Below, piece by piece: positions 10,501-13,500 of a stretch of DNA of 64,000 nt. The notes beneath the pieces are model-generated. The model searched no databases, was not told the DNA's origin, and saw only the letters and a list, made by a program, of their open reading frames with translations. A program made the translations under genes and the position numbers. The number at the start of each line of letters is the position of its first letter. Position 1 is the stretch's first letter. The stretch spans positions 2,483,501 through 2,547,500 of the forward strand of contig NC_135551.1 of the NCBI RefSeq assembly GCF_964340395.1, read 5' to 3'. The DNA is from Glandiceps talaboti. Taxonomy: Eukaryota; Hemichordata; Enteropneusta; Spengelidae.

Positions 10501-13500
10501 AAAAAGCAACTCTTTGAAACTGCATATAGGCAGACTAATTTAGAGGTCTATTATTATCAATACTAGCATGGGTATAATATGTCCAATATCTGTTTAACTA
10601 GAAATAATCATGATATAAGGATTTTGAAACAAGTCTTAAACTGACCCCTTATCTCATTTTATATGGCTGAATGAAGGAAACTAAAGGGAAATAATATATC
10701 AATATGATATTGTAACTTGATCTGTTAACCTTTGACCTTGACTCATTAAAATCTGTCTTTATTAATCTTTTACAGGATGTTGTTCATTTCCACTCAACCC
10801 TAAAAGATGCCTGTGATAAACATGATCCAAAGCATTATGAAAACTTTAAGAAATGGTGTGACAAATACTTCTATATTCCACACAGAGGTAGGTCAGGGGT
10901 CATATTTAGGTCAAAGGTCACCTCTTATGAGTTCTTTAGAGATCCACAACAGCATCAGATATTGTATGTACACGTATGGTATGCACTGTTTAATAACCTG
11001 TTCAAATCTGTATAGCGAAATCACTGTATAGGGTATAATCTGAAATAGTCAAGTGATTTCAGTGTGCCACACTTGGTATTAGCATTTATATCAGGTGTAT
11101 TAAATATAGCACTACTGAGCAGGTTTGGCAGCAGATTTAATGGGGACGTATAGATGAAGAAGAATTCACAACACAGTCTCATCAGTGATACACAAATTAG
11201 GTCTAAAATGTGAATTTAGGTCGAATACTTGTATCTTGAAAACTACTTGGTAATGGGGGCTGAAATATAGTGGGGATGTTCCTAAAAGTGTTATTCAGTA
11301 GATAATGTTCAAGGCATTGACACAGCTGGCCCTAGTATCCATGACCATAGCCTTGATAGCAACAGCCAAATTTGGGTGGACCAAGTGAATAAGTAGTATT
11401 TAAAAATGTATGCAAATGTGCCTAGCAACAAGACCTTTAGCAACAGTCAATGATTGGTGCATATTGCAAAGATAATAGTCTCAGTTATCCAGCCTCGAGA
11501 CTGCCCCAAACGAGAGTCTTGGGAAATGAGATTCCAACTCGTTCACACAGGTTGGGTTGTATTGTAATTAGCACCACTGTTGTTTTTGTAGAGGAGTGTC
11601 GTGGTGTTGGTGGTATTTTCTTTGATGACTTAGATAGTCCATCTCAAGAAGATGTCTTTCAGTTTATACAGGTAGGATATTTTCTACGTCTTTCAGTTTA
11701 TACAGGTAGGATATTTTCTACATTTTTCAGTTTATACAGGTAGGATATTTGCTACATTTTTCAGTTTATACAGGTAGGATATTTTCTACATTTTTCAGTT
11801 TATACAGGTAGGATATTTTCTACATTTTTCAGTTTATACAGGTAGGATATTTTCTACATTTTTCAGTTTATACAGGTAGGATATTTTCTACATTTTTCAG
11901 TTTATACAGGTAGGATATTTTCTACATTTTTCAGTTTATACAGGTAGGATATTTTCTACGTCTTTCAGTTTATACAGGTAGGATATTTTCTACATTTTTC
12001 AGTTTATACAGGTAGGATATTTTCTACGTCTTTCAGTTTATACAGGTAGGATATTTTCTACATTTTTCAGTTTATACAGGTAGGATATTTTCTACGTCTT
12101 TCAGTTTATACAGGTAGGATATTTTCTACATTTTTCAGTTTATACAGGTAGGATATTTTCTACATTTTTCAGTTTATACAGGTAGGATATTTTCTACGTC
12201 TTTCAGTTTATACAGGTAGGATATTTTCTACATTTTTCAGTTTATACAGGTAGGATATTTTTCTACATTTTTCAGTTTATACAGGTAGGATATTTTCTAC
12301 ATTTTTATACTCAGAAGTTTTAGTGATGTTAGTGATATTTGACAAGAGACATTCAACTCATATGACAAATTATCTGTTCAATTAAAGTGACAATCTGTAT
12401 GTTTTTTGCAGTAATAAATAGAAACTATGTATCGGTATGTACAAACATTGAAAGTAGAATTATTTATGTACTGGTCTGTTTACTGCACTGTCAGGATACA
12501 TTGTTAGCTGGTTGTACCTCCTAGCCCTATAATCTGTTTACTGCACTGTTGAGATGCATCATTTTATTTACATATATTTGATGTAAATTTAACCATGGGA
12601 TGCCGGAAAACCATGATAACAACTTTTGGAGGATGTAGCTACCTGAATAGTTAGAAAATATTCTGAAGACAAGCAGAGAATACGAGGACTATGAGGTATA
12701 ACCAGCTAATGATGTATGTCGACATGTGTAGTAAACATGCTATGTACATGTTATATATATAGTATGTATGTATGTACAAACAGTGAAAGTAGAGACTGAA
12801 AGTATATATGTACAAACAGTGAAAGTAGACACTGAAAGTATGTATGTACAAACAGTGAAAGTAGAGACTGAAAGTATGTATGTACAAACAGTGAAAGTAT
12901 ATATGTACAAACAGTGAAAGTAGAGACTGAAAGTATGTATGTACAAACAGTGAAAGTATATATGTACAAACAGTGAAAGTAGAGACTGAAAGTATGTATG
13001 TACAAACAGTGAAAGTAGACACTGAAAGTATATATGTACAAACAGTGAAAGTAGAGACTGAAAGTATGTATGTACAAACAGTGAAAGTAGAGACTGAAAG
13101 TATGTATGTACAAACAGTGAAAGTATGTATGTACAAACAGTGAAAGTAGAGACTGAAAGTATGTATGTACAAACAGTGAAAGTATGTATGTACAAACAGT
13201 GAAAGTATGTATGTACAAACAGTGAAAGTAGAGACTGAAAGTATGTATGTACAAACAGTGAAAGTATATATGTACAAACAGTGAAAGTAGAGACTGAAAG
13301 TATGTATGTACAAACAGTGAAAGTATGTATGTACAAACAGTGAAAGTATATATGTACAAACAGTGAAAGTATATATGTACAGTGAAAGTAGAGAATGAAA
13401 GTATGTATGTACAAACAGTGAAAGTATATATGTACAAACAGTGAAAGTAGAGACTGAAAGTATGTATGTACAAACAGTGAAAGTATGTATGTACAAACAG

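Follow-up and report, generated by a model that had tools for sequence, protein, structure and literature searches.

In the hemichordate Glandiceps talaboti, an acorn worm, a coding exon of the heme-synthesis gene for coproporphyrinogen-III oxidase (CPOX) runs at its 3' end into a 34-bp minisatellite of 19 copies, which spans the 5' splice site of the exon and repeats the exon end together with the start of the following intron. The array lies in a 64,000-nt window, the whole stretch of DNA analysed here (NCBI RefSeq assembly GCF_964340395.1, contig NC_135551.1, positions 2,483,501 to 2,547,500 of the forward strand; window coordinates below count from its first nucleotide, and the CPOX exons and arrays are on the forward strand). 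It is very probably a local minisatellite that was born by chance across an exon border, a structure known in amphioxus as a mirage, and no function is needed to account for it.

Tandem Repeats Finder (TRF) places the array at 11657-12306 (period 34, 19.1 copies, 96% match), and the copy list contains 19 occurrences of CAGTTTATACAGGTAGG at 34-bp steps, with a single step of 35. The first of these is the genuine end of the exon at 11592-11671, which leaves 18 extra copies of the unit (11694-12306, taken for splice scoring). An earlier note on this DNA had described the repeated CPOX exon end and about 18 additional copies, and both the description and the array end at 12306 are borne out by the TRF call and the copy list; its start at 11592 is that of the exon rather than of the array. 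The exon itself (80 nt, ending FQFIQ, with its last 15 nt inside the TRF array) is supported by its splice sites, by an in-frame join and by an exact match to the annotated protein. The unit reads CAGTTTATACAG/GTAGGATATTTTCTACATTTTT, the slash here and below marking an exon-intron border or breakpoint, and the first complete unit, at 11660-11693 by the copy list and seed analysis, starts within the exon and comprises 12 exonic and 22 intronic bases, with the real 5' splice site between 11671 and 11672. Each copy holds CAG/TTTATACAG/GTAGG, and in 19 of 19 copies AG and GT stand where a splice signal would have them; 28 of the 34 unit positions are invariant across the array, and two junction variants, ATTTTT and GTCTTT, are intermingled along it. 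The earlier note had read every unit as an acceptor-like ttttcag, nine bases and the donor gtagga. The repeated donor stands, whereas the acceptor-like tract fails in the first copy, where GTCTTTCAG is coding sequence (Val-Phe-Gln). The exon closes in phase 0, so that a 9-nt insert of TTTATACAG reads Phe-Ile-Gln (FIQ) and would stay in frame, as had been proposed. A dispersed repeat or mobile unit as the source of the array was rejected: in a whole-genome DNA search that skips very common words, a 121-bp query of exon plus array gave 7 matches, all at this locus.

The flanks and junctions of the array point to how it arose. On the exon side the sequence reads ...GATGTCTTT/CAGTTTATACAG, and after the last copy it reads ...TACATTTTT/ATACTCAG, giving CAGTTTATACAGGTAGGATATTTTCTACATTTTT as the 34-bp seed, which opens with exonic CAG and closes with intronic TTTTT. 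TTT is common to the left flank and the unit end, that is, to both breakpoints of the seed, and the exon border lies 12 bp inside it, suggesting that this short pyrimidine repeat, rather than the junction, set the breakpoints. The same two observations rule out a seed starting at the splice junction, the mechanism that the earlier note had put forward. The first duplication would have come about at TTT through either slippage or end-joining; later rounds of unequal exchange, or else conversion, may have raised the array to 19 copies and spread the two junction variants through it. Such copies would be tolerated if the spliceosome takes the donor of the true exon and the array leaves with the intron that carries it, which is 11.7 kb long; because of this, array growth would be invisible to selection while the outermost copy remains undamaged.

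The host gene is defined by nine exons placed in the window by splice sites and frame (1465-1583, 6022-6088, 9935-10060, 10776-10887, 11592-11671, 23397-23476, 23953-23979, 26022-26124 and 26335-26424), of which 23397-23476 is the partner of 11592-11671 across the array-bearing intron. Joined, they give an open frame of 267 residues with a terminal stop that is 100% identical over all 267 residues to the annotated Glandiceps talaboti coproporphyrinogen-III oxidase and is assigned by Pfam to PF01218 (E 4.2e-143). The gene extends over about 63 kb (C4:2446778-2509921), and the count of its borders used here is 21, with one coding exon (about residues 34-81) unlocated. Three of the 21 mapped borders lie inside arrays, with units of 56, 87 and 34 bp, and the earlier claim of three border-spanning CPOX arrays in the window is upheld by TRF and the exon map (1-1469, 6057-6644 and 11657-12306). 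The 87-bp array (6057-6644, 6.8 copies) crosses the 5' splice site of exon 6022-6088, which ends ...AAGISAVIHP/gtaagt, and covers its last 32 nt. The stretch at 1-1469 is the tail of the 56-bp array and carries the 3' splice site of exon 1465-1583, with an exon overlap of 5 nt only; in full this array measures 8,045 bp (143.7 copies) and begins about 6.6 kb before the window. Elsewhere in the gene, the CPOX exon at L020 7038 is preceded by a degenerate repeat that abuts the acceptor and copies no exon sequence; this repeat was set aside. A 39-bp-unit array of 8.3 kb (L018 1404-9699) begins about 58 bp past a CPOX exon donor and makes no contact with it.

How often arrays meet splice borders by chance was assessed in other genes of the genome. 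Myosin, dynein and kinesin genes were picked irrespective of repeats from Pfam-domain rows (Myosin_head, 79 matches; AAA_6 of dynein, 91; kinesin, 143, from which 14 rows in four regions were used). The regions are the best 30 loci each of Myosin_head and AAA_6 plus the four kinesin regions, a non-random sample of well-conserved exons, and 109 of the 170 myosin and dynein rows fall inside the sampled DNA. Paralogue comparison supplied further exon segments, of which 36 of 38 were used; a duplicated exon tail (C10) and a region-edge segment (C6) were dropped. The survey covered 43 regions (170,156 bp) with 159 exon calls and 93 arrays; 235 borders passed the threshold, exon ends at domain edges and those with lower splice scores being left uncounted. 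Splice matrices and thresholds were self-made and typed in from general knowledge. Under the null, seeds of equal unit length were dropped at random into these regions after each array had been reduced to a single unit, wholly exonic seeds being excluded. The least exon overlap accepted was 3 nt, a limit at which one dynein array (C8) stands exactly.

Border-spanning arrays numbered 9 in this survey against 5.32 expected (P 0.073, score thresholds 1/2); they are spread over six contigs, and six of them cover a donor and three an acceptor. Looser thresholds (0/1) gave 257 borders and 10 arrays versus 5.96 expected (P 0.063), and a smaller first pass had given 7 over 157 borders versus 3.47 (P 0.055). 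Observed and expected counts were close among longer arrays, with 3 versus 2.38 at three or more copies, 1 versus 1.13 at five or more and 1 versus 0.61 at ten or more. Tandem arrays occur in these genes at 0.55 per kb, or roughly one per 2 kb. Border-spanning arrays are therefore a common feature of the genome, and most or all of them are explained by how densely tandem duplications occur; a modest excess at borders, of about twofold, would be compatible with the survey. The earlier verdict that chance is a poor explanation finds no support in these counts. The only survey case with at least ten copies is a dynein heavy chain donor inside a 31-bp, 14.6-copy array (CTG/GTAAGTGTG; C8:23883824-23884299, L078). 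We note that a dynein exon tail, ...TIHVHQRDIFDDLV, occurs twice within 400 bp as a protein-level duplicate of an exon end (C10:24040088-24044493; L067, L070).

Four points weigh against a chance origin without function. The strongest is that CPOX, taken alone, is above the null (3 versus 0.36-0.74 expected, nominal P 0.005-0.04). With all 28 arrays counted, 3 span borders versus 0.63 expected (P 0.024); without a BEL/Pao-type (Pao) element described below, the expectation is 0.74 (P 0.036); for arrays of at least five copies it is 0.36-0.41 (P 0.005-0.007); and a simpler null gives 3 versus 0.71 (P 0.032), or 2 versus 0.29 at ten or more copies (P 0.031). All of these P values are nominal, since its striking appearance was the reason for choosing the gene. 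If the survey rate (9 in 235 borders) is applied, the probability of 3 or more among 21 is 0.045 for one gene, which is unremarkable among thousands of genes. Second, the excess of 9 over 5.3 in the survey itself leans toward a border preference. Third, the copied sites resemble ordinary splice sites in their scores: all 19 donors of the array are identical and reach 4.54 (survey donors, n = 126: median 5.39), and the acceptor-like sites in the 18 extra copies range from 2.66 to 4.02 (survey acceptors, n = 109: median 3.39), so leaky use would be possible. Fourth, the annotated CPOX protein, which is set against such use below, may be a computed model.

The first two points feed the best-surviving alternative, that splice borders are favoured starts of tandem duplication, whether through AG/GT or pyrimidine-rich microhomology or through co-transcriptional DNA stress that raises the rate. 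This account is unlikely, although it can draw on the survey counts under both pairs of thresholds, on the CPOX counts for arrays of any copy number (3 versus 0.63-0.74, P 0.024-0.036) and on the position of the seed's TTT microhomology in pyrimidine-rich sequence. It is opposed by the lack of a clear excess in the survey at three or more or five or more copies, by a seed whose end is not at the junction and by the way in which CPOX was chosen. A broader form of the idea, to which we give slightly less weight again, would make splice borders in Glandiceps talaboti genuine, moderate hot spots of tandem duplication, affecting about 4% of sampled borders, with some arrays providing decoy or alternative splice sites that differ in number between individuals and offer a lasting supply of splicing variation and new introns.

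A second alternative, which we regard as improbable, is that some copies are used in RNA, either as 9-nt FIQ micro-exons or as downstream donors that would yield longer, frame-shifted transcripts and less CPOX output. The donor-like and acceptor-like sites of ordinary strength kept in the copies favour it, as does their spacing when one copy is skipped (donor-to-acceptor gap of 59-60 nt): at least 59 bp separate copies that are not neighbours, and inclusion of a single copy may be compatible with that distance. From the donor of one copy to the acceptor of the next, however, there are 25 nt (26 once), which to our knowledge is below the usual length of animal introns, and neighbouring copies would for this reason hardly both be included. 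The annotated CPOX protein contains a single FIQ, at the junction, with no extra FIQ; its 90% cluster consists of this one sequence, and FIQFIQ occurs in 0 of the 120 best-listed CPOX homologues (of 7,964 passing). The lack of FIQ repeats in the protein and its homologues speaks against an annotated FIQ isoform, and, given also the 25-26-bp spacing of neighbours, the reading of the 18 extra copies as usable micro-exons is not supported. Downstream donors fare no better by conceptual translation. If the second or third donor were used (extension by one or two copies), the reading frame would shift and run into a stop no later than the end of the following exon; with the fourth to eighth donor (extension by three to seven copies), the stop would come within the extension itself. 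Since later donors would be harmful in this way, use of the first donor is presumably under selection.

Least credible of all is selection for splice-like sequence within the arrays, which the earlier note had suggested for donor-like sequence; the copies might then serve, for instance, as decoys that sequester splicing factors. The 19 identical donors of the 34-bp array would suit this proposal, as would a 143-unit 56-bp array whose units have all retained AG and in which variation affects 2 of 21 positions of the acceptor region versus 8 of 35 others. The invariant donor is no exception, however, in a unit with so many unvarying positions, and mean mismatch in the 143-unit array is much the same in the acceptor region and elsewhere (0.0186 versus 0.0176), on which ground purifying selection on its splice-like bases was rejected. 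The CPOX 34-bp array is thus probably best read as a neutral mirage.

The window holds several other elements. A BEL/Pao-type retrotransposon at 14496-21332 has matches to the Pao peptidase and reverse transcriptase and weak matches to integrase, and is bounded by near-identical long terminal repeats (14496-14886 and 20942-21332). It lies inside a 36-bp minisatellite, which it divides into 12766-14496 and 21329-23176, and at either flank it has GAAAG, probably a target-site duplication. A DIRS-like element at 27615-33649 is bounded by inverted ends of 109 bp (27615-27723 and 33541-33649) and contains a frame whose matches to tyrosine recombinase fall under the Pfam cut-offs. The first exons of a second gene lie at 43544-43891 (end approximate), with no TRF array overlapping them; by resemblance, judged by eye, its product may be a tomosyn or LLGL-like protein. 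That the other arrays of the window keep off exons, as the earlier note had stated, holds for the CPOX exons and, by eye, for two exons of this second gene.

In this hemichordate, 9 of the 235 borders sampled in genes other than CPOX carry a border-spanning array, a number not clearly above random seeding. The survey supports a simple neutral account and provides a first numerical baseline against which claims of hot spots at splice borders can be judged, and runs of decoy splice sites such as this one are a caution for gene-modelling tools.

Several known systems bear comparison. Turri is said to have described in 1995 a human minisatellite that provides multiple splice donor sites, in a gene that we take to be IFI6 (6-16). 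The CPOX array is like it in being a minisatellite with multiple donor-type sites; the donors of the human minisatellite reportedly serve a transcript, whereas those of the CPOX copies are candidate sites. Intron gain through tandem genomic duplication of AGGT, as reviewed in PMC3443670, offers a second parallel, in that the duplicated segment contains AGGT and each copy thus bears potential splice sites. There, exonic duplication creates a new intron, whereas the CPOX copies lie within an existing one, and no new intron between copies is evident from the annotated protein model, which is the plain exon join.

The closest relatives are the mirages of amphioxus, border-spanning minisatellites described in Adh3 and the globins BflGb6 and BflGb9 (PMC3087553) and in PGBD5 and troponin C (PMC3902484). 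These reports place such minisatellites in lancelets, give unit lengths of 10-160 bp (PMC3087553) and state that regular splicing is left undisturbed (PMC3087553, PMC3902484); keyword searching of a partial literature collection found no earlier border-spanning minisatellite from a hemichordate. By its sequence, the CPOX array fits the structural definition of a mirage: a tandem repeat (11657-12306) lies over a coding exon-intron boundary (11671/11672), the AG and GT splice signals are copied in all 19 units, and the unit of 34 bp falls within the reported range, as do the 56-bp and 87-bp units of the two further CPOX arrays. The likeness is thus that of a minisatellite that lies over an exon border and repeats its splice signals. 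The Glandiceps talaboti case differs from the amphioxus mirages in coming from a hemichordate, in affecting three borders of one gene and in reaching up to 144 copies.
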